Positions 53,836-64,000 of a stretch of 64,000 nucleotides of DNA are shown here, piece by piece. Origin of the DNA: Goekera deserti (lineage in GTDB: Bacteria > Actinomycetota > Actinomycetes > Mycobacteriales > Geodermatophilaceae); contig NZ_JAAGWK010000009.1 of the NCBI RefSeq assembly GCF_010685995.1, positions 62,001 to 126,000 on the forward strand, read 5' to 3'. The stretch's first letter is position 1. The number at the start of each line of letters is the position of its first letter. Below the pieces are notes generated by a model, which was given only the letters and a program-made list of their open reading frames with translations, did no database searches and was not told where the DNA came from. The translations under genes were made by a program, and so were the position numbers.

Positions 53836-54636
53836 TCAGCCGGCGTCCGGCCGGGGTCGGACGACGGGGAACGAGCCGGTCGACGTGCCGGGGCGGCGGC
53901 GCGGCGCGGCGCGGAGCAGCGCCGTGCCGGGCAGCCAGCTGCGCTGCCAGGCCGACAACGACCGGGACAGCTGCTCGCGGGAGACGATGCGCCGGGTGGT
54001 GAGCGGGGCGAAGCCCATCCGGGAGAGGAAGCGCTGACGCTCGGCCTCGTGCCCACCGGCGGCGGCGACGACGTGCTCGGCGCCGGTCTGCTCGGCGTAG
54101 GCGGCAGCCGCGGCGAGCAGCACCGCACCCACGCCGCGCCGCCGGTGGTCGCGGTGCACGACGAAGGAGTCCACGGTGACCTGCGGGCTGCCCAGCACCA
54201 CCGACAGCGGGTCGACCCCGAGCACGGCGAGGCCGACGGCGACCTCCCCCGCGGTGTCGGCGCCGGGTGCGTTCGGGCCGGGCAGGACGGCGAGGACCAC
54301 CCGGTGCTGCGGGTCGGCGAGCAGCCGGCGGAAGCCGGCGGCCGCGGCGGCGCCGGGGCCCTGGCCGGTGAGCACGTGCTCGACGTGCGACTCGGCCCGG
54401 TACTGGCGCACCAGGGCGAGCACGGCGGCGAGGTCGTCCCCGCGGGCGACCCGGGTCTGCACGGCCGACCGGTGGGCCGCACCGGCCCGGCCGCTGCGGA
54501 CGACCCCGGAGGGCGGGCGCGGGCTGGGCACGGGCACGGCGGTCACCGGGGCCCGGAACTCCGTGGGCGCGCTCGTCGCCACCGGCCAGCCGCGGCCCGC
54601 GGTCGATCCTGTCTCACCAGACACAACTGCGGACAC
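53836..54636 (-). CDS. GNAT-family N-acetyltransferase
   Basis: 266 residues. Acetyl-CoA-binding motif A in VDSFVVHRDHRRRGVGAVLL (R-x-x-G-x-G/A), followed by AEQTGAEHVVAAAGGHEAER and FLSRMGFAPLTTR. The first 70 residues are disordered. GTG at 54636 has GGGGAGGG about 5 bases upstream, better than an in-frame ATG at 54687. Acceptor unknown; the convergent thioesterase may be unrelated. Confidence 0.83.
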   Translation of the reverse strand: MSAVVSGETGSTAGRGWPVATSAPTEFRAPVTAVPVPSPRPPSGVVRSGRAGAAHRSAVQTRVARGDDLAAVLALVRQYRAESHVEHVLTGQGPGAAAAAGFRRLLADPQHRVVLAVLPGPNAPGADTAGEVAVGLAVLGVDPLSVVLGSPQVTVDSFVVHRDHRRRGVGAVLLAAAAAYAEQTGAEHVVAAAGGHEAERQRFLSRMGFAPLTTRRIVSREQLSRSLSAWQRSWLPGTALLRAAPRRRPGTSTGSFPVVRPRPDAG

Positions 54637-54816
54637 TGGAGCCCTCCCCGGACGGTGCGTGCAGCCTGCACCCTCCGCGGCATGCACACATGGCGGCGCG
54701 CCGCAACCCTCAGCAACGAACTCGTGGCCCCCACTTCGGACGGGGAGGAACCGCGCCGGGTCGCGATGAGGTCACAGCTCGTACCAGGACGACCCGAGAC
54801 CGTCACAGGCGTGGGT

Positions 54817-54822
54817 TACTGT
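54817..54822 (+). promoter_or_regulatory. Possible -10 box of the livHMGF operon
   Basis: TACTGT, 30 bases before the livH start, which has its own GGGAGG site. No matching -35 hexamer. Confidence 0.3.
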
Positions 54823-54852
54823 CCCGGCTCAATCCAACGGCTGGGAGGTCGA

Positions 54853-56229
54853 GTGACCCACGCGCCACACCGTGCGCCCGAGAACGTGGACCGACCCGTC
54901 CGCGACGCCGGGGACCGCACGGCTCGTCCCGGGGCGCGACTCCGGAGGCGGACGCGATGGTCCTCCGCCCGCCGCCCCCTGCTCCTGACGCTCGTGCTGG
55001 CTGCGCTCGCCATGGCGCTGGCCACGCTGGTGCCCGGCGTGGCCCAGGCGGCCGGTGAGCAGGTGCGCGGCACGCTGACCACCGGCGCCACCGGGCCGAT
55101 CGAGGGCGCCACGATCACCGTGGAGACCGCCGACGGGGCCGAGGTCGACGAGGTCGAGACCGACGAGAACGGCCAGTTCGCGGTCGACCTGCCCGGCCCC
55201 GGCGACTACGTCGTGACCCTGGACGCCGAGTCGCTGCCCGACGGCGTCGAGGTCGGCCCGGCCGGTGACACCCGCACCGTCACGGTCACCACCGGGCGGC
55301 GGGCGCCGGTCAACTTCGCCCTCTCCGACGGCGAGAGCGGCGGCACCGGCCGCATCCTGGCCGTCCAGCTGCTGGTCGACGGCGTCCGGTTCGGCCTGCT
55401 GATCGCCATGTGCGCCGTGGGCCTGTCGCTGATCTTCGGCACGACGGGCCTGACCAACTTCGCCCACGGCGAGCTGGTCACCCTCGGCGCCGTCGTGGCG
55501 CTGGCGGTGAACGTGAGCGGTGGTGTGCCGCTCATCCTGGCCGGCCTCGTCGCCGTGGTGGCCGGCGCAGCGGTCGGCGCGCTCAACGAGCTCGGGTTGT
55601 GGCGCCCGCTGCGCCGTCGCGGCACCGGCCTGGTCGCCGCCCTGGTGGTCTCGATCGGTCTCTCGCTGGCCGGGCGCTACCTCATCCAGACCTTCTACGG
55701 CGGCCGGTCGCGGGCCTACATCGACTACCAGTCGCAGCGGGCCCGGGACTACGGCCTGTTCACCCTCACCGACCGCGACCTGTACTCCATCGTCATCTCG
55801 ATCCTGGTGCTGGTCGGGGTCGCGGTGATGCTGCAGCGCACCCGGATCGGCAAGGCCATGCGGGCCGTCGCGGACAACCGCGACCTCGCTGCCTCCTCGG
55901 GCATCAACGTGGACCGGGTGATCCTGGTGGTCTGGAGCATGGGCGGTGCGCTGGCCGCGCTCGGCGGCGTGCTGCTCGGCCTGTCCGACCAGGTGCAGTG
56001 GGACATGGGCTTCCGGCTGCTGCTGCTGATGTTCGCCGGCGTCACCCTCGGCGGGCTGGGCACGGCCTACGGCGCGCTGGTCGGCAGCCTCATCGTCGGT
56101 GTCTTCGTCCAGCTGTCCACCCTCGTCATCCCCGATGACGTCAAGTACGTCGGAGGCCTGCTCCTCTTGATCGTCATCCTCGTCATCCGACCCCAGGGCA
56201 TCCTGGGCAGTCGCGCACGGATCGGCTGA
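54853..56229 (+). CDS. livH: Branched-chain amino acid ABC permease LivH with an exported N-terminal domain
   Basis: 458 residues. Residues 165-458 are a standard LivH permease (VGLSLIFGTTGLTNFAHGEL, ALGGVLLGLSDQVQWDMGFR, FAGVTLGGLGTAYGALVG). In front is a basic segment, a signal-anchor (LLLTLVLAALAMALATLVPG, ending VAQAA) and a roughly 90-residue beta domain (ATGPIEGATITVETADG, ETDENGQFAVDLPGPGDYVV) like carboxypeptidase-regulatory or CNA-B repeats. The extra domain would face outside. GTG is preceded by GGGAGG. First gene of the transporter operon. Confidence 0.9.
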   Translation: MTHAPHRAPENVDRPVRDAGDRTARPGARLRRRTRWSSARRPLLLTLVLAALAMALATLVPGVAQAAGEQVRGTLTTGATGPIEGATITVETADGAEVDEVETDENGQFAVDLPGPGDYVVTLDAESLPDGVEVGPAGDTRTVTVTTGRRAPVNFALSDGESGGTGRILAVQLLVDGVRFGLLIAMCAVGLSLIFGTTGLTNFAHGELVTLGAVVALAVNVSGGVPLILAGLVAVVAGAAVGALNELGLWRPLRRRGTGLVAALVVSIGLSLAGRYLIQTFYGGRSRAYIDYQSQRARDYGLFTLTDRDLYSIVISILVLVGVAVMLQRTRIGKAMRAVADNRDLAASSGINVDRVILVVWSMGGALAALGGVLLGLSDQVQWDMGFRLLLLMFAGVTLGGLGTAYGALVGSLIVGVFVQLSTLVIPDDVKYVGGLLLLIVILVIRPQGILGSRARIG

Positions 56230-56234
56230 CCGGC

Positions 56235-57251
56235 ATGACCGAGTTCCTCGACGCCCTGCAGCTCGGCGTGCGCGCGATGTTCGCCTACCAGGCGGTGTTC
56301 TTCGCGCTGCTCGCCATCGGCCTGAACCTGCACTTCGGGTACACCGGGCTGCTCAACTTCGGCCAGATCGCCTTCGCGATGCTCGGCGGCTACGGGATCG
56401 CCATCTCGGTCAGCCAGTGGGGCCTGCCCTTCGGGGTGGGCGTGCTGGTCGGCCTGGGCGCGGCGGTGGTCCTGGCGCTGCTGCTCGGCCTGCCCACGCT
56501 GCGGCTGCGCGCGGACTACCTGGGCATCGTGACGATCGCGGCGGCGGAGGCGCTCCGGCTGCTGTTCCGGTCGGTGTCCGCCACCGACCTGACCGGCAGC
56601 ACGCTGGGACTGCAGGCCTTCAACGGCGGCTTCCTGGCGCTGTGCCCGTGGACGGTCGCGAAGCGCTACGACATCCTCGGCACCCGGTGGAGCGGCGCCG
56701 AGCTGTGGGTGATCACGGTCGGCTGGACGCTGGTGCTGCTCTGCTCGCTGCTGGTCTTCGCCCTGATGCGCAGCCCCTGGGGTCGGGTGCTGCGCGCCGT
56801 GCGCGAGGACGAGGACGCCGCCCGCGCGCTGGGCAAGAACGTCTACGCCTACAAGATGCAGTCCCTGGTGCTCGGCGGCGTGTTCGGGGCCCTGGGCGGG
56901 ATGGTCTACGCGGTGGGCACCGGGGCCGTCCAGCCCGACCAGTACCAGAACGCCAACACGTTCCTGGCCTACGGGGCGCTCATCCTGGGCGGTGCCGCGC
57001 GGGTGCTCGGGCCGGTGATCGGCGCGATGCTGCTCTGGTTCATCATCGCGTTCTCCGAGAGCGGCCTGACCGCCCTGGTCGACAGCGGTGTCAGCTTCTT
57101 CGGGCTGTTCCGGCTCGACGAGGTCTTCTCCACCACCGACGTCTCCTACGCCCGCTTCGTGATCATCGGGCTGGGCATCATGCTGCTGATGGTCTTCCGG
57201 CCGCAGGGCATCATCGGTGACCGACGAGAGGTGATGCTCGATGCCCGCTGA
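56235..57251 (+). CDS. livM: Branched-chain amino acid ABC permease LivM
   Basis: 338 residues, about ten helices. Conserved LNLHFGYTGLLNFGQIAFAM near the N-terminus, LPTLRLRADYLGIVTIAAAE and SPWGRVLRAVREDEDAARAL (the EAA-type loop touching the ATPases). Ends FRPQGIIGDRREV. ATG is 5 bases after livH; it overlaps livG by 11 bases. Confidence 0.95.
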   Translation: MTEFLDALQLGVRAMFAYQAVFFALLAIGLNLHFGYTGLLNFGQIAFAMLGGYGIAISVSQWGLPFGVGVLVGLGAAVVLALLLGLPTLRLRADYLGIVTIAAAEALRLLFRSVSATDLTGSTLGLQAFNGGFLALCPWTVAKRYDILGTRWSGAELWVITVGWTLVLLCSLLVFALMRSPWGRVLRAVREDEDAARALGKNVYAYKMQSLVLGGVFGALGGMVYAVGTGAVQPDQYQNANTFLAYGALILGGAARVLGPVIGAMLLWFIIAFSESGLTALVDSGVSFFGLFRLDEVFSTTDVSYARFVIIGLGIMLLMVFRPQGIIGDRREVMLDAR

Positions 57252-58302
57252 CCCGACACCCCACGGCTCCTCCCCCGCCGGCGACCCAGCAGCCGGGGCG
57301 ACCCGGGCGCCGGCGCCCGGCCCCGACGCCGACGCCGACGCACCGGCCCGCGCCTGGGCACGCGGCGACGCCCCCGCCCGGCTCGCCCAGACCGCGCTGG
57401 CCGACCTGCCCTGGCAGGTCGGGGTGCCCAAGCCCGACCCGGTCGTGGTCGTCGACGGCGTCACCCGCACCTTCGGTGGGCTGACGGCGGTCTCGGTCGA
57501 CCACCTGGAGATCCAGCGTGGCGGCATCACCGGCCTGATCGGGCCCAACGGTGCCGGCAAGACGACGCTGTTCAACCTGCTGACCGGCTTCGACCAGCCG
57601 AACACCGGCACCTGGAGCTTCGACGGCCGGCCGCTGGGCAAGCTCGCCCCGCACCAGGTCGCCCGGCTGGGCGTGGTGCGCACGTTCCAGCTCACCAAGG
57701 CCCTGTCCCGGCTGACCGTGCTGCAGAACATGCTGCTCGGCGCCAAGGACCAGAGCGGGGAGAGCTTCTTCAAGGCGTTGCTGCCCACCACCTGGCGCGG
57801 CCAGGAGAAGGCGAACACGGAGAAGGCGCTGGACCTGCTGCGCCGCTTCAAGCTGGACGCCAAGAAGGACGACTTCGCCGGCACCCTGTCCGGCGGGCAG
57901 CGCAAGCTGCTGGAGATGGCGCGGGCGCTGATGAGCGACCCGAAGGTCGTCATGCTCGACGAGCCGATGGCCGGGGTGAACCCCGCGCTGACCCAGAGCC
58001 TGCTCGGGCACGTCAAGGACCTCCGCGAGGAGGGCATGTCGGTGATCTTCGTCGAGCACGACATGGACGTCGTCCGCGACATCAGCGACTGGGTCGTGGT
58101 CATGGCCGCCGGCCGGGTGATCGCCGAGGGCCCACCCGAGTCGATCTCGCAGAACAAGGACGTCGTCGACGCCTACCTCGGCGCCCACCACGACGCGCCG
58201 CTGACCTCCGAGGAGGAGGACCGGGTGCTCGCCGAGTCCCGCGCCGCCATCATCGCCGAGCGGGCCCCCGCCGGGACCCCCAGCGAGAGGACCGGACTGT
58301 GA
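57241..58302 (+). CDS. livG: Branched-chain amino acid ABC transporter ATP-binding protein LivG
   Basis: 353 residues, about 90 longer than usual. Residues 1-70 are a Pro/Ala/Asp-rich extension; the ATPase then shows Walker A IGPNGAGKTTLFNLLTGF, signature LSGGQRKLLEMARAL, Walker B VVMLDEPMAGVNP and the H-loop VEHDMDVVRD. A further 40-residue acidic tail (TSEEEDRVLAESRAA) follows. Pairs with LivF to drive the LivHM channel. Confidence 0.94.
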   Translation: MPADPTPHGSSPAGDPAAGATRAPAPGPDADADAPARAWARGDAPARLAQTALADLPWQVGVPKPDPVVVVDGVTRTFGGLTAVSVDHLEIQRGGITGLIGPNGAGKTTLFNLLTGFDQPNTGTWSFDGRPLGKLAPHQVARLGVVRTFQLTKALSRLTVLQNMLLGAKDQSGESFFKALLPTTWRGQEKANTEKALDLLRRFKLDAKKDDFAGTLSGGQRKLLEMARALMSDPKVVMLDEPMAGVNPALTQSLLGHVKDLREEGMSVIFVEHDMDVVRDISDWVVVMAAGRVIAEGPPESISQNKDVVDAYLGAHHDAPLTSEEEDRVLAESRAAIIAERAPAGTPSERTGL

Positions 58303-58349
58303 GCGCCGAGGGCACGAGCACGGGCACCGCACTGGAGGTGCGACGGTGA
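58299..58349 (+). CDS. Mini open frame bridging livG and livF
   Basis: 16 codons. Its GTG overlaps the livG stop (GTGA) and its TGA overlaps the livF GTG (GTGA). It could hand ribosomes from livG to livF, whose own GGAGG site lies inside it. May be a chance frame. Confidence 0.3.
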   Translation: MSAEGTSTGTALEVRR

Positions 58350-59200
58350 GCGAGCCGCTGTTCGAGGTCGACGAGACCGGCGAGGACGTCACCCGGGCCG
58401 ACACCGCGTCGTCGGCTGCCGAGCTGTCCCCCGCCGAGAAGGCGGCCACCCGCGAGGAGCACCTGAAGCTCGCGGAGGGCGCCCTGGTGCGGGCCGACGA
58501 CCTCGTCGCCGGCTACGTGCCCGGGGTCAACATCCTGCGGGGCTGCGACTTCTACCTGCAGGACGGCGAGCTGGTCGGCATCATCGGCCCGAACGGCGCC
58601 GGCAAGTCGACGCTGCTGAAGACCCTGTTCGGGCTGATCCCGGTCCGCTCGGGCGAGGTCACGCTGCGCGGGGAGTCGATCACCGGTGCGCCGGCGCACC
58701 GGCTGGTCTCGATGGGCGTGGGCTACGTGCCGCAGAACAACAACGTGTTCCCCTCGCTGTCCATCGAGGAGAACATGCAGATGGGCGTGTTCCTGCGGCC
58801 GAAGACGTTCAAGGAGCGCTTCGACTACGTCATCGACCTGTTCCCGCTGCTCGGCGAGCGGCGCAAGGGCAAGGCCGGTGCCCTGTCCGGTGGCGAGCGC
58901 CAGATGGTGGCCATGGGCCGGGCGCTGATGATGGACCCGTCGGTGCTGCTGCTCGACGAGCCCTCGGCCGGCCTGTCGCCGGTCTACCAGGACGAGGTGT
59001 TCATCCGCTGCCGGCGGATCAACGCCACCGGCGTCTCGATCATCATGGTCGAGCAGAACGCCCGCCGGTGCCTGCAGATCTGCGACCGGGGCTACGTGCT
59101 CGACCAGGGCCGCAACGCCTACACCGACTCGGGCCGCTCGCTGATGAACGACCCGAAGGTCATCGAGCTGTACCTGGGGACCCTCGCCAAGGCCCAGTGA
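58346..59200 (+). CDS. livF: Branched-chain amino acid ABC transporter ATP-binding protein LivF
   Basis: 284 residues, including a 45-residue acidic N-terminal extension. Walker A IGPNGAGKSTLLKTLFG, signature LSGGERQMVAMGRAL, Walker B VLLLDEPSAGLSP, H-loop region replaced by VEQNARRCLQICDRGYVL as in LivF. GGAGG is 8 bases before the GTG. Last gene of livHMGF; a strong hairpin follows. Confidence 0.94.
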   Translation: MSEPLFEVDETGEDVTRADTASSAAELSPAEKAATREEHLKLAEGALVRADDLVAGYVPGVNILRGCDFYLQDGELVGIIGPNGAGKSTLLKTLFGLIPVRSGEVTLRGESITGAPAHRLVSMGVGYVPQNNNVFPSLSIEENMQMGVFLRPKTFKERFDYVIDLFPLLGERRKGKAGALSGGERQMVAMGRALMMDPSVLLLDEPSAGLSPVYQDEVFIRCRRINATGVSIIMVEQNARRCLQICDRGYVLDQGRNAYTDSGRSLMNDPKVIELYLGTLAKAQ

Positions 59201-59205
59201 CGCCC

Positions 59206-59235
59206 ACGGCGCCGGCCCGCCGGGGTCGGCGCCGT
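59206..59235 (+). terminator. Terminator of livHMGF
   Basis: ACGGCGCCGGCCC and GGGTCGGCGCCGT pair over 13 bp (one G-T) around a GCCG loop, 5 bases after the livF stop. Confidence 0.75.
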
Positions 59236-59486
59236 CCGCCTCGCCCGGCGTGACCGTCCACCAGGTCGCGGGGGGCCGAGTCCGGGTCGAAGTGGGCCGT
59301 GACCCGCGCGGGGACGTCCCGGGTGCCGGGCATGCAGCACCGGGCCGTCGAGGGTGTGCAGCCGGACGTCGGTCGGGTGCACGCCCGCCGTCCTCGCCGC
59401 CGGCTCGCGGTGGGCGTCGCGGGCAGCCGTCGTCGTGGGGATCTGGGGTGTGCGGAGGGGGTGCGCCCGGTGGGCAGACTGGGCGG

Positions 59487-59807
59487 GTGACACGTGAGCA
59501 GCTGCTGGCCCGCTACCGGCACCTGGTGCTGGGTGAGCTGCCGCGGCGGGCGCGGGCCGGGCGGTGGGTGGTGACCGCCGACCACTGCTTCGGCCGGATC
59601 GTGCTCGACCACGCGGTGGGTGGTCGCTGGTACGACGTGCTGGACCGCCGCCGCTCCCCCGCGTTCGCCCAGTTGGACGACGAGCAGCTGGCCCGGGCGG
59701 TCGGGGTCGCCGAGCAGGTGGCCGCCGGCGGCGACCCGGTGCTGCGGGAGCTCGACGCGCAGAGCCTGGCCTGGCGCGGCAAGCCGCGGAAGCGACCGGC
59801 GCGGTGA
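59487..59807 (+). CDS. Small conserved-looking hypothetical protein
   Basis: 106 residues. LLARYRHLVLGELPRRARAG, then HCFGRIVLDHAVGGRWYDVLDR, and a helical C-terminus (LAWRGKPRKRPAR). Similar proteins are often labelled GCN5-like acetyltransferase in actinobacteria, but no acetyl-CoA motif is visible here. Overlaps the next gene by GTGA. The 280 bases before it hold only the livF terminator. Confidence 0.7.
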   Translation: MTREQLLARYRHLVLGELPRRARAGRWVVTADHCFGRIVLDHAVGGRWYDVLDRRRSPAFAQLDDEQLARAVGVAEQVAAGGDPVLRELDAQSLAWRGKPRKRPAR

Positions 59808-60229
59808 CGCTGCTGCTCGTGCACCTGGTGCTGGTCAGCGCGTACGCCGGGTTCCAGTGGACCGTGCGCGGGCTGGTCTACCCGCAGTTCGCCGAGGTGC
59901 CCGAGCAGGCCTTCGCCGGCTACGAGCGGGCGCACCAGCGCCGGGTCAGCGTCGTGGTCGGGCCGCTGTTCGCCGGGCAGGGCATCACCGTCCTGTGGCT
60001 GCTGGCCGACCGTCCGGACGGGCTGTCCCCCGGCTGGGTGCTCGCGTCCGGGGCGTTGCTCGCGGTCGTGCTCGGCGTCACCGCCCTGGGGGCCGTGCCG
60101 CTGCACCGGCGCCTGGATGCCGGGTGGGACCGCCAGGCACACCGGGCACTGCTCCGGGTGGACGCCGTCCGGCTGGCCGCGGCCCTCGCGAACGCGCTCG
60201 TCGTGCTGGTGGCGGTGCTGCGCGGCTGA
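59804..60229 (+). CDS. Small integral membrane protein
   Basis: 141 residues with four predicted helices: LLLVHLVLVSAYAGFQWTVR, VVVGPLFAGQGITVLWLLAD, WVLASGALLAVVLGVTALGA and LAAALANALVVLVAVLRG. The arrangement, with YPQF after helix 1 and PLHRRLDAGWD before helix 4, recalls DUF1772/anthrone-oxygenase-like membrane proteins; this is tentative. Coupled to the 106-residue gene. Confidence 0.7.
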   Translation: MTLLLVHLVLVSAYAGFQWTVRGLVYPQFAEVPEQAFAGYERAHQRRVSVVVGPLFAGQGITVLWLLADRPDGLSPGWVLASGALLAVVLGVTALGAVPLHRRLDAGWDRQAHRALLRVDAVRLAAALANALVVLVAVLRG

Positions 60230-60414
60230 CGACCCGCGACCGGTCCTGGCCCCGTGGCCGTGCGGTCGGCGCTGCTCCTGGGTCGCCTGCACCGGAGCGT
60301 CCGGGTGGCGTGCCGCCCTGCAGGCGGGGCGGGACGCGGCGGTGAGCGCGTGACGTGCCGCCGGTGGGCCGACGGCCGAGCTCGGCCACGCGACCCTGGC
60401 CCGGCCACGACGCA

Positions 60415-60454
60415 GAGCGGCCCGGCACCTCCTCGTCGAGGTGCCGGGCCGCTC
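60415..60454. terminator. Strong bidirectional terminator facing livK
   Basis: GAGCGGCCCGGCACCTC and its exact reverse complement, a 17-bp perfect stem with a 6-base loop, 31 bases beyond the substrate-binding protein stop. It separates the two convergent units. Nothing else was seen in 60230-60485. Confidence 0.85.
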
Positions 60455-60485
60455 CGTCAGTGCGGTGATGCGGTGGTGCGGTGGG

Positions 60486-61829
60486 TCAGCGGGCCGGGCC
60501 GATGCCCTGCGCGTTGAGCTCCTGGATGATGCGGGCCGACTCGTCGAAGCCGATGACGATGATCGCGTCGGGGGCGAACTCGACCATCTGCTGGACCTCG
60601 GTGTCGTAGGACGACGCCGTCGGGTCGTAGGTGATGGCCCGGATGTCGCCCTCGGCGAGCCCACCGGCGACGAGGTTCTTGGTCACGTTGGTGGCCAGAC
60701 CCGTGCCGTACGCGTCGTTCAGGTTCAGGATCCCGACCTTGGTGTTGCCGTCGGCCAGCACGAGGTCGGCCAGCGGCACGGCCTGCAGCTGGTCCGGCGG
60801 CGCGGTGCGGAAGTAGAGGTTCTTGTCCGCGTAGGTCGTGAACTGGTCGGAGGTGTTGGCCGGGGAGAACTGCACGACCCCGGCGTTCACGATCTTGTCG
60901 ATGACGGTGAGGCTCACCGACGACGACGCGGCACCGATGATGGCGTTCACGTTCGCGGCGAGCAGCCGGTCGACCGTGGTGTTGGCGGTGTCGGTCGACG
61001 TGTCGCCCGAGTCGCCCTCGACCAGCTGGACCGGAGCGCCGAGCACGCCGCCCGCGGCGTTGATCTCCTGCACGGCGAGCTGCACGCCGGCGACCTCGGG
61101 CGGGCCGAGGAAGGCCAGCGAACCGGTCAGCGGCAGCAGCGTGCCGATGATCAGCGGATCGCCGGTGGCGCCGGGGGCGACCGGTGCCGGCGGGACGGCG
61201 GTGTCGGCCATCGACTCGTCGCCGGCGACCTGGAAGTCGGTCAGCGAGTCGTCGATCTTGTTGTCCTCGCCGAACTGCAGCAGGCCGAAGCTGGCGACCG
61301 CGGGCTCACCGGGGGCGGCGAAGTCCAGCGGGCCGGACGGCCCGTCGTAGTCCACGTCGCCGCCGGCGTTCAGGATCGCCAGGCAGGCCGCGAAGTCGGT
61401 GCACTTCTCGCCGCCGGAGGTGAGGCCGTTGATGTACGGCGCGAAGGCGGTGGCGTCGTTGGTGCCGGCCGACTGGGCCGCGAGGGCGGTCAGCACGACA
61501 GCGTCGTAGGACTCACCGGCGTAGTTGTACGTGCCACCCAGGTTGGGGTTCAGCGCGTCCAGGCGAGCCTTGAAGTCCGTGCTGAGGTCGGTGAGCGGGG
61601 TGGTGCCCTTCATCCCGGCGAGAGCACCCTGGTCGGTGAACTGGTCACCCAGGCTGCTGCCCATGTTGCCGTCGGAGCCGTAGATGTTGGTGACGTCCTC
61701 GCCGGCACCGGCGCCGCCGCTGCTGCTGGCGGTCGCCTCGTCGGAGCTGTCGTCGCTGCCGCACGCCGAGGCAGCGAGCAGGACGACTGCCGTGACCGAG
61801 ACCGCACGGGCGATCTTGCCTGTTCGCAT
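60486..61829 (-). CDS. Branched-chain amino acid-type substrate-binding lipoprotein, circularly permuted
   Basis: 447 residues. Lipobox LLAASAC (Cys 23), Ser/Glu/Gly linker, then residues 45-205 match the C-terminal half of LivK-type proteins (NIYGSDGNMGSSL, YNYAGESYDAVVLTALAA, EKCTDFAACLAIL, VDYDGPSGPLDF). A Pro/Ala linker (AVPPAPVAPGATG) leads to residues 222-447, the canonical N-terminal half (IIGTLLPLTGSLAFLGP, FSPANTSDQF, LYFRTAPPDQ, DAIIVIGFDESARIIQEL), ending where the C-terminal half would normally start. Both halves appear complete. Good ribosome site TGGAG. Likely binds the ligand for LivHMGF. Confidence 0.9.
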   Translation of the reverse strand: MRTGKIARAVSVTAVVLLAASACGSDDSSDEATASSSGGAGAGEDVTNIYGSDGNMGSSLGDQFTDQGALAGMKGTTPLTDLSTDFKARLDALNPNLGGTYNYAGESYDAVVLTALAAQSAGTNDATAFAPYINGLTSGGEKCTDFAACLAILNAGGDVDYDGPSGPLDFAAPGEPAVASFGLLQFGEDNKIDDSLTDFQVAGDESMADTAVPPAPVAPGATGDPLIIGTLLPLTGSLAFLGPPEVAGVQLAVQEINAAGGVLGAPVQLVEGDSGDTSTDTANTTVDRLLAANVNAIIGAASSSVSLTVIDKIVNAGVVQFSPANTSDQFTTYADKNLYFRTAPPDQLQAVPLADLVLADGNTKVGILNLNDAYGTGLATNVTKNLVAGGLAEGDIRAITYDPTASSYDTEVQQMVEFAPDAIIVIGFDESARIIQELNAQGIGPAR

Positions 61830-61910
61830 CAAGTGACTCCAGGGAGCTGTGTCGGTTCGTCGGAGAAGCTCCACGCGACACGGGGCCCCGGGAGATTCGG
61901 CGCTGACCGT

Positions 61911-61920
61911 AACCGCGGTT
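61911..61920. promoter_or_regulatory. Short palindrome upstream of the binding protein gene
   Basis: AACCGCGGTT, perfect 10-bp palindrome 82 bases before the start. Possible operator; short enough to occur by chance. Confidence 0.25.
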
Positions 61921-61977
61921 CTGCTCCCTGTGGACGGACCGTCGTGCACCGTGATGAGGTCGTGACCTCCTCCGGTT

Positions 61978-61992
61978 GCCCGGCTCCCGGGC
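61978..61992 (-). terminator. Small hairpin after pdtaR
   Basis: GCCCGG-CTC-CCGGGC, 6-bp perfect stem extended by further pairs after a bulge, 13 bases beyond the pdtaR stop. Confidence 0.45.
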
Positions 61993-62005
61993 CGGAAGAA
62001 CTCCG

Positions 62006-62617
62006 TCAGCGCGCGGCCGGGTCGCCCTCGGGCTCGGTGACGGAGTGCTCCTCCATGATGGCCTCGGCCAGCACCCGCATCGAGGTGCGCTCGTTCATGG
62101 CGGTGCGCTGGATCCAGCGGAACGCCTCGGCCTCGGTGATCCCCCGGTCGGCCATCAGCTTGCCCTTGGCCCGCTCGACCACCTTCCGGGCCTCCAGCCG
62201 CTCCTTCAGGTCGCCCACCTCGGCGTCCAGGGCGGTCATCTCCAGGAACCGGGCGCGGGCCACCTCGATCGCCGGCACCAGGTCGTTCTTGGAGAACGGC
62301 TTCACCAGGTAGGCCATCGCGCCGGCGTCGCGTGCGCGCTCCACCAGCTCGCGCTGGCTGAACGCGGTGAGCACGATGACCGGGGCGATCCGGGCGGCGG
62401 CGATCTGCTCCGCTGCGGCCAGGCCGTCCAGCACCGGCATCTGCACGTCCAGGATCACCAGGTCCGGCGTCAGCGCGCGGGCCTGGTCGACGGCCTGCTG
62501 GCCGTCGCCGACCTCGGCCACGACCACGTACCCCTCCTCCTCCAGCATCTCCTTGAGATCGAGTCGGATGAGGGCCTCGTCCTCGGCGATGAGGACACGC
62601 GTCGCAGCACTGGTCAC
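62006..62617 (-). CDS. pdtaR: ANTAR-domain response regulator (PdtaR-like)
   Basis: 203 residues. Receiver domain with acidic pocket LIAEDEALIRLDLKE, phospho-acceptor Asp in DLVILDVQMPVLDG, Thr in IVLTAFSQRELV and Lys in YLVKPFSKNDL. The C-terminal ANTAR domain is RKVVERAKGKLMADRGITEA and AFRWIQRTAMNERTSM, which binds RNA hairpins and prevents termination. Close to mycobacterial PdtaR (Rv1626). GTG at 62617 was chosen because TAGGCT ends 7 bases upstream; ATG at 62635 would lie upstream of that promoter. The partner kinase is not nearby. Confidence 0.93.
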   Translation of the reverse strand: MTSAATRVLIAEDEALIRLDLKEMLEEEGYVVVAEVGDGQQAVDQARALTPDLVILDVQMPVLDGLAAAEQIAAARIAPVIVLTAFSQRELVERARDAGAMAYLVKPFSKNDLVPAIEVARARFLEMTALDAEVGDLKERLEARKVVERAKGKLMADRGITEAEAFRWIQRTAMNERTSMRVLAEAIMEEHSVTEPEGDPAAR

Positions 62618-62624
62618 GGCTGGG

Positions 62625-62630
62625 AGCCTA
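62625..62630 (-). promoter_or_regulatory. -10 box of pdtaR
   Basis: TAGGCT, 7 bases before GTG 62617; decides the start in favour of a leaderless GTG. Confidence 0.5.
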
Positions 62631-62658
62631 GCCATCACCGGGGGTCCGGCGCGCCCGT

Positions 62659-62664
62659 TAGGCT
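62659..62664 (+). promoter_or_regulatory. -10 box of the tRNA-Leu-like gene
   Basis: TAGGCT, ending 14 bases before the tRNA. Confidence 0.4.
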
Positions 62665-62678
62665 GAGTGCGACTGTGA

Positions 62679-62752
62679 GCCCCCGTACCCCAATCGGTAG
62701 AGGGAGCGGATTCAAAACCCGCGCAGTGTCCGTTCGAGTCGGACCGGGGGCA
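62679..62752 (+). tRNA. tRNA-Leu-like gene (anticodon CAA) with a short variable arm
   Basis: 74 nt. Acceptor GCCCCCG/CGGGGGC, D-arm with CCC/GGG stem and AATCGGTAG loop, anticodon arm GCGGA-TTCAAAA-CCCGC (A-C mismatch at the loop-closing pair), 5-nt variable region GCAGT, T-arm GTCCG-TTCGAGT-CGGAC, discriminator A. CAA reads the leucine codon TTG, but normal leucine tRNAs have a long variable arm. It folds as a class I tRNA. Divergent from pdtaR with its own promoter-like box. Confidence 0.8.
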
Positions 62753-63050
62753 CCGTTCCGCGACCCCGGCTCCCGTCGCGGCCGGGTCCGGGCGCGGCCG
62801 GGTCCCGGCGCGATCGCGACGAACGCGGTGGCGACGAGCGCGGTGGCCCACGCCACGCGTTGCGGTGGCGAGCGCCCGGGCACACCACACACTGCCCGCG
62901 TCCTCCGGGCGTTGCCCGCCGTCCAGAGCCGGCACCGCCGGCCCCGAGCGGGCACCGCCGCCGCCCGAGCGGGCACTGCCCGTCGCGGTGCCGGGGCCGG
63001 GCGGCGCACCTCCCGGGGGCCCGGCTCCGCGGCGTGACCAGAGGGCCACA
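62753..63050. other. GC-rich intergenic region with short direct repeats
   Basis: 298 bases without a credible gene. It contains doubled short motifs (GCGCGGCCGGGTCC twice near 62785, CCGAGCGGGCAC twice near 62945) but no clear promoter, hairpin or attachment site. GAGGG at 63041 serves the next gene. Confidence 0.5.
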
Positions 63051-64000
63051 ATGGGCGCCGTGACCGGCCACATGACCCCTGAGCAGTTCCGCCAGCACGG
63101 CCACGAGGTCGTGGACTGGATCGCCGACTACTGGTCGCGGCTGGAGACCCTGCCGGTGCGCTCGCCGCTGGCACCCGGCGACGTCCGGGCCGGGCTGCCC
63201 GCGCAGGCACCGGAGCAGGGCGAGCCGGTCTCGGCGATGCTGGCCGACCTCGACCGGGTCGTCGTCCCCGGGCTCACGCACTGGCAGCACCCCGGCTTCT
63301 TCGGCTACTTCCCGGCCAACACGTCCGGGCCCTCGGTGCTCGGCGACCTGGTCTCCGCCGGGCTCGGCGTGCAGGGCATGTCCTGGGTGACCAGCCCGGC
63401 CGCCACCGAGCTCGAGCAGCACGTCCTGGACTGGCTGGCTGACCTGCTCGACCTGCCCGCGGCGTTCCGCTCCACCGGCACCGGCGGCGGCGTGGTGCAG
63501 GACTCCAGCTCCGGGGCCAACCTGGTCGCCCTGCTGGCCGCGCTGCACCGGGTCAGCAAGGGCGCCACCGTCCGCGGCGGCGTGCTGCCCGACGACCAGC
63601 TCGTCTACGTCTCCGCCGAGACGCACTCCTCCATGGAGAAGGCGGTGCGGATCGCCGGCCTGGGCAGCGACGCCGTCCGGATCGTCGAGGTGGACGCCGA
63701 CCTGGCCATGCGCCCGGCGGCGCTCGCCGCGCGGCTGCAGCGCGACCGCGACCGGGGCTTCACCCCGGTCATGGTCTGCGCCACCGTCGGGACGACGTCG
63801 ACGACCGCGGTGGACCCGCTGGCCGAGATCGGCCCGATCTGCCGGGAGCACGGCGTCTGGCTGCACGTGGACGCCGCCTACGCCGGGGTCAGCGCCGTCG
63901 TCCCCGAGCTGCGCCACCTGCAGGCCGGCCTGGAGTGGGCCGACAGCTACACCACCGACGCGCACAAGTGGCTGCTCACCGGCTTCGACGCCACCTTGTT
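63051..64000 (+). CDS. Pyridoxal-dependent decarboxylase (aromatic-L-amino-acid decarboxylase type), partial
   Basis: First 317 residues of a group II PLP decarboxylase; the gene runs off the window. Landmarks: HWQHPGFFGYFPAN, SPAATELEQHVLDWLADLL, DSSSGANLVALLAALHR (cofactor phosphate), ETHSSMEKAVRIAGL, ATVGTTSTTAVDPLAEI, WLHVDAAYAGV (Asp to pyridine N) and DAHKWLLTGFD with the Schiff-base Lys. ATG at 63051 has GAGGG 5 bases upstream. Substrate (tryptophan, tyrosine, DOPA or phenylalanine) cannot be told from this part. Confidence 0.93.
   Translation, partial: MGAVTGHMTPEQFRQHGHEVVDWIADYWSRLETLPVRSPLAPGDVRAGLPAQAPEQGEPVSAMLADLDRVVVPGLTHWQHPGFFGYFPANTSGPSVLGDLVSAGLGVQGMSWVTSPAATELEQHVLDWLADLLDLPAAFRSTGTGGGVVQDSSSGANLVALLAALHRVSKGATVRGGVLPDDQLVYVSAETHSSMEKAVRIAGLGSDAVRIVEVDADLAMRPAALAARLQRDRDRGFTPVMVCATVGTTSTTAVDPLAEIGPICREHGVWLHVDAAYAGVSAVVPELRHLQAGLEWADSYTTDAHKWLLTGFDATL

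Follow-up and report, generated by a model that had tools for sequence, protein, structure and literature searches.

The stretch of Goekera deserti DNA analysed here (64,000 nucleotides, hereafter the window) carries a livHMGF importer locus next to the gene of a substrate-binding protein (SBP). On the plus strand, the permeases LivH (open frame 54991-56229) and LivM (56235-57251) match Pfam BPD_transp_2 (4.9e-44 for LivH), and the ATPases LivG (57241-58302) and LivF (58346-59200) match ABC_tran, with BCA_ABC_TP_C in addition in LivG. The SBP gene lies on the minus strand, located with these permease and ATPase genes and convergent with livF; upstream of it and co-directional is the gene of an ANTAR-domain response regulator (62006-62635, minus strand), a frame of 209 amino acids with Response_reg and ANTAR matches on 62009-62614, which we take to be PdtaR-like. 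AmiC/AmiR is another pairing of a binding protein of class I with an ANTAR protein. Near the regulator, no Rfam gathering match to an RNA element was obtained in positions 54000-64000. LivH bears an N-terminal CarboxypepD_reg domain (3.3e-10), an extension that looks unusual for a permease; it was matched beside canonical SBPs too and was rejected as a permutant-specific partner.

The SBP gene (CDS 60486-61829, minus strand, as are all its parts below) starts with ATG and encodes a putative lipoprotein of 447 amino acids; the coordinates, strand and frame of the initial annotation were correct. Judged from the sequence, a signal peptide (residues 1-22; 61764-61829) ends in AASA immediately before the lipobox cysteine C23 (61761-61763), the presumed lipid anchor, and starts of the MRTG..C type are common to many relatives. 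A Ser/Gly/Asp-rich tether follows (residues 24-46; 61692-61760), and the predicted structure has a pLDDT below 50 across residues 1-42. Next comes the canonical C-terminal part, here placed first (residues 47-205; 61215-61691), which opens at the strand bearing YGSDGN and contains a pair of cysteines in GGEKCTDFAAC. A Pro/Ala-rich linker (residues 206-224; 61158-61214) newly joins the old C-terminus to the old N-terminus, and the canonical N-terminal part (residues 225-447; 60489-61157) runs up to the stop codon (60486-60488). The order is therefore signal and lipobox, canonical C-terminal part, linker and canonical N-terminal part.

A profile of 377 positions, built from 54 canonical relatives and searched against the window protein, returned two strong stretches in swapped order: residues 40-195 correspond to profile positions 216-370 (i-E 2e-50) and residues 225-446 to positions 2-221 (i-E 1.5e-99), and the small overlap between them (216-221) sits in the tether. 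The reversed protein and 20 shuffles gave no reported match to this profile, and canonical L084, itself one of the 54 profile rows, gave a single match over positions 2-374. All five of the other permutants tested showed two matches each, again swapped. Because the two stretches are strong, inverted in order and absent from the controls, each half must be present once and nearly complete; duplication or truncation is rejected by the same search, and the half swap claimed in the initial annotation is borne out, the normal order that it had named as counter-evidence not being what the profile alignment gave. Pfam Peripla_BP_6 likewise matches in two stretches (120.1 bits against a cut-off of 31.7), the better of which pairs residues 228-445 with profile positions 4-217 of 343, and the three other Peripla_BP_6 proteins of the Goekera deserti genome span that profile in one normal stretch. 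With phmmer, residues 228-443 fall on positions 10-221 of chain 4gnr (i-E 2.2e-15) and residues 48-123 on positions 224-302, the latter too weak to count alone (5.4 bits, i-E 87). The match to the family profile is thus significant, but the linear N-to-C order of the family is lost: the protein is a permuted variant of the Peripla_BP_6 / LivK type, not a standard member, and the circular permutation is nearly seamless. The score against the NCBIfam LivJ-type model (66.7 bits, far below the cut-off of 477) is uninformative on the permutation, because the canonical relative L033 from Planotetraspora (82.2 bits) also falls far below it.

A structure prediction, which had been proposed as a check, gave a confident fold: with 46 aligned rows, AlphaFold reached a pLDDT of 87.5 and a pTM of 0.85, only residues 1-42 scored below 50, and the linker region was well predicted (block means of 87 and 81 for blocks within residues 201-220). 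A structure search aligned the region from about residue 224 to 445 with roughly the N-terminal 220 residues of chains that bind leucine or amino acids. The nine best VIA-align rows, which include leucine-binding chains and LivK 3td9, match from residues 223-225 to 445-446 with Z of 17.1-18.1 and rmsd of 2.1-2.6. Searching with the whole model and sequential aligners returned no separate match for the C-terminal half; this one-sided result is as expected, since a sequential aligner applied to a permutant covers little beyond residues 221-447. The initial annotation had located the break near a hinge crossing. The model puts it instead in a helix-to-strand loop, between the helix of residues 431-440 and the strand of residues 48-52, and with lobes assigned from LivJ, an assignment that we assume to hold here, the cut lies inside the second lobe and precedes the presumed second crossing by about 25-30 residues. 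The altered placement of the lipid anchor relative to the lobes, also foreseen there, follows from the order of the halves.

Conserved stretches in an alignment of mixed order are GAASS, SPANTS, FRTAPxD and the cysteine pair of GGEKCTDFxxC. The first three, together with the acidic residue in YGSDGN, presumably correspond to ligand-site regions of LivJ. In both halves pN is below pS against all four relatives tested. For three of these, dN/dS is 0.14-0.30 in both halves; towards the most distant one it rises to 0.67 (C-terminal half) and 0.48 (N-terminal half), indicating weaker constraint, and the linker is looser (0.38-1.11), the synonymous estimates behind all these values being rough in GC-rich DNA.

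Comparison of 28 loci from the window's family (f1; f8, f13, f16, f30 and the like are family codes used in the genome sampling) and from f13, a set with some genomes repeated, one contig cut and L002-L020 outside, placed an ANTAR gene beside the permuted SBP in 27. The exception, L137, is a second SBP copy elsewhere in genome G021 that has no liv match nearby (about 8 kb). In each of the nine Streptosporangiaceae loci examined, and also in f8 loci, the ANTAR gene and the liv genes flank a canonical SBP; in five of the nine, the SBP shares its strand with livH, the first of the liv genes, and is not convergent with it. The closest canonical relatives at this kind of locus are about 60-65% identical in their N-halves. 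Since canonical SBPs occupy the same ANTAR/liv locus in Streptosporangiaceae and f8, we infer that the permutation took place in situ. The ANTAR neighbour is found irrespective of SBP order in the window's family, Streptosporangiaceae and f8, and the Arthrobacter loci and the loci of the A and B permutants described below have liv genes and no ANTAR match within the DNA examined. In the 17-kb loci of four f16 permutants (L122-L125), nothing matched liv genes within about 8 kb; one of these genomes, G625, holds both the orphan permutant L125 and, next to liv genes, a canonical SBP (L140). For the liv-orphan permuted SBPs (L122-L125 and L137), receptor or accessory roles are possible.

In an order-level sample of 298 genomes, 122 had a match at E <= 1e-40, and in 92 of these the match was colinear with the permuted query, meaning that the matched query ranges, counted as listed, follow its order. 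The colinear genomes comprise 46 of the 51 listed for f1, along with one f13 and 45 f16 genomes, the last two being counts only and not fractions of the genomes searched; the remaining 30 matched in canonical fashion only, through the N-half and in some cases with a separate C-half match. Further afield, 54 of 396 genomes in a phylum-level sample matched (8 colinear), as did 49 of 66 in the class of G391 (2 colinear) and 59 of 198 in the class of G351 (5 colinear). Looking for the same permutation in related genera, as had been suggested at the outset, revealed it in Blastococcus, Modestobacter and Geodermatophilus; named permuted loci also come from an Acidimicrobiaceae, a Microthrixaceae and another Acidimicrobiia bacterium, and named canonical loci include Streptosporangiaceae, Dactylosporangium and Arthrobacter. 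A set of 143 deduplicated relatives, drawn from best-match loci and hence not a random sample, contained 57 permuted and 86 canonical proteins; from it, the distant loci L059-L076 (18 in all) had been excluded, as had near-identical cores and rows containing X. The permutation is widespread in the window's family and probably recurrent, which goes beyond the single-gene observation.

As one rival explanation, the contig might have joined canonical halves in the wrong order, and the Goekera deserti genome is indeed in 61 contigs; yet numerous independently assembled genomes of the family share this order and these junctions at 56-85% identity, the single-contig G002 and G021 among them, and permutants so divergent cannot share one artefact. 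Misassembly is ruled out by these independent assemblies, and we give it practically no weight. The gene could alternatively be a decaying paralogue whose permuted product folds badly and persists only briefly, as the long branch and missing liv neighbours of the four f16 permutants might suggest. Its presence in nearly all genomes of the window's family, its almost invariable ANTAR/liv locus, and an intact and constrained reading frame make such decay very improbable. Instead, all indirect lines considered predict a functional protein, and we propose, with a probability of roughly 0.9, that the product of this gene is a functional LivK-type protein (Peripla_BP_6, class I) in circularly permuted form, which serves the adjoining livHMGF importer as its substrate-binding lipoprotein. 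The two halves would form one bilobed domain, with the linker of residues 206-224 as the probable fourth crossing between the lobes and ligand-site residues from both halves meeting in one cleft. An amino acid would be captured by closure of the lobes and then delivered to LivHM, and the lipid anchor would hang on lobe 2 instead of lobe 1. The permuted protein thus probably captures nutrients for the amino-acid importer.

Cut sites, numbered on the L084 core, fall into two nearby classes. In the window, f13 and f16 proteins the N-part ends at 219-222 and the sequence resumes at about 227, just before the YG(S/T)DGN strand. In permutants of Acidimicrobiia (group A) and g115 (group B) the N-part ends at about 240-245 and the sequence resumes at 243-247, so that they are cut directly after this strand-helix element, some 20 residues later than the window type, and carry the element at their C-terminus. 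Accordingly, the confident model of the Acidimicrobiaceae A-type permutant L027 (pLDDT 84.7, pTM 0.82) has at its C-terminus the strand and helix that the window protein carries towards its N-terminus. The cuts neither duplicate nor lose sequence, a few loop residues excepted. Some alignments of the window C-part extend back to canonical positions 202-217; they are taken as spurious because they run through the low-complexity tether.

The number of permutation events was addressed with trees of sequences rotated to canonical order, in which an order change is a switch between canonical and permuted; the permuted groups are GEO (Geodermatophilaceae), F16, A and B. From 110 starting rows (54 canonical, 56 permuted), a careful tree of 79 rows retained 48 canonical and 31 permuted ones and omitted near-duplicates, one row with X and most Geodermatophilaceae rows; it has three order changes (bootstrap 3-3), of which the starred branches force two. 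A quick tree of 82 of the 143 relatives, without L058, one L052 copy, L051, L102, near-duplicate canonical rows and permuted rows outside the chosen list, also has three. After removal of 19 long-branch or distant canonical rows, the resulting 63-row tree has three (bootstrap 3-4), all forced by starred branches. The N-half tree has five (three forced) and the C-half tree three (one forced), both being short and weakly resolved. AU tests, with groups named after a tree had been seen, rejected a single clade of all permuted rows (p 0.00056 and 5.4e-5 in two tests), the later-cut groups A and B as one (0.0115 and 0.00083) and, more weakly, A with GEO and F16 (0.009 and 0.033). A branch of the 63-row tree separates GEO and F16 together from all other rows, with weak support (74/33).

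Because the trees need three order changes and the AU tests reject single clades, this SBP family has probably undergone two or three permutations, all cut at close to the same position. Two origins have good support and three are likely, under tests that cannot tell gain from reversal. We lean slightly towards three independent permutations, one in Geodermatophilaceae and allies, one in an Acidimicrobiia clade and one in a genus of another actinobacterial class, with cuts within about 20 residues, every cut seamless and flanking either side of the same strand-helix element. A single ancestral permutation, with the canonical relatives inside the permuted groups as reversions and the 20-residue shift as a later change, seems rather unlikely. 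It would suit the proximity of GEO, F16 and group A with the canonical f8 group among them, the nearly identical cut of A and B, and the low numbers of forced changes in the 79-row and C-half trees, and order changes on a tree cannot separate gain from loss. Moreover, the neighbours of group B vary with the row set (canonical f53 rows, L037 and allies, or L182 and L188 once added). A single origin conflicts with the AU rejections and with the different cut sites of GEO and A. Head-to-tail fusion of halves from two different SBP paralogues is improbable. Tandem SBP genes do occur in the family, and F16 (on a long branch) neighbours GEO in the C-half tree, but in the N-half tree, where canonical f8 splits GEO, its neighbours are the distant canonical L194/L195. 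Nevertheless, the half-trees behind this apparent conflict are the poorly resolved ones, and in both of them B stands beside canonical L182/L188 and GEO and A lie near each other.

The likely route would be tandem duplication of the orthologous canonical gene followed by trimming, leaving the permuted gene in place. Two canonical SBP genes stand in tandem at L038 and at L052, where the first copy is divergent (about 34% identical), and such pairs are what a duplication route to permutation would have to start from. In the model described in PMC3320104, a tandem duplicate acquires a new start and stop, which predicts a fused intermediate; no fused double copy was found among open reading frames of at least 250 amino acids in the loci examined (L059-L076 outside), so the duplication route is put forward as an inference.

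Natural circular permutants of substrate-binding proteins seem to be rarely described, and the present case comes with apparent repeats and with canonical relatives whose loci are of the same kind, which make it more interesting than the single gene suggested. If true, three independent permutations would suggest a permissive site and selection for tethering via the second lobe. The cut sites are naturally proven places for opening LivK-type proteins in sensor building.

Compared with canonical LivK/LivJ proteins (Peripla_BP_6, PF13458; 4gnr, 3ipc, 3td9), the window SBP shares both halves and the liv genes alongside but differs in the order of the halves, the place of the lipid anchor and the linker between the old termini. 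The literature searched, mainly at title and abstract level, contained no report of a natural permuted LivK-type protein, and TpMglB-2 (Tp0684) of Treponema pallidum was the only naturally permuted protein of this class found there. Work on ribose-binding protein, in the parts of PMC9815098 considered, shares the theme of permutation in the same fold, with structures of permuted half-proteins used to study fold evolution, but describes no natural full-length permutant. TpMglB-2, a 'Type Ic' or 'Cluster Bc' ligand-binding protein, is closer: the portions of PMC4990184 considered describe a class I (cluster B) substrate-binding lipoprotein that is circularly permuted in nature, crosses between its lobes a fourth time, and still binds ligand and changes conformation. 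It is of the glucose-binding MglB type and cut in the N lobe, its first three canonical N-lobe strands being relocated to the C-terminus, and the moved part is only 13% identical to EcMglB (PMC4990184). By contrast, the LivK-type window SBP has its cut placed in the second lobe, about 220 residues of the canonical N-terminal part moved as one block, halves with clear sequence identity to canonical relatives, and its place in the locus kept. Circular permutation of a class I ligand-binding lipoprotein is common to both; by analogy, the window SBP would work like TpMglB-2, but with the move of three N-lobe strands lacking it is not a member of Type Ic / Cluster Bc.
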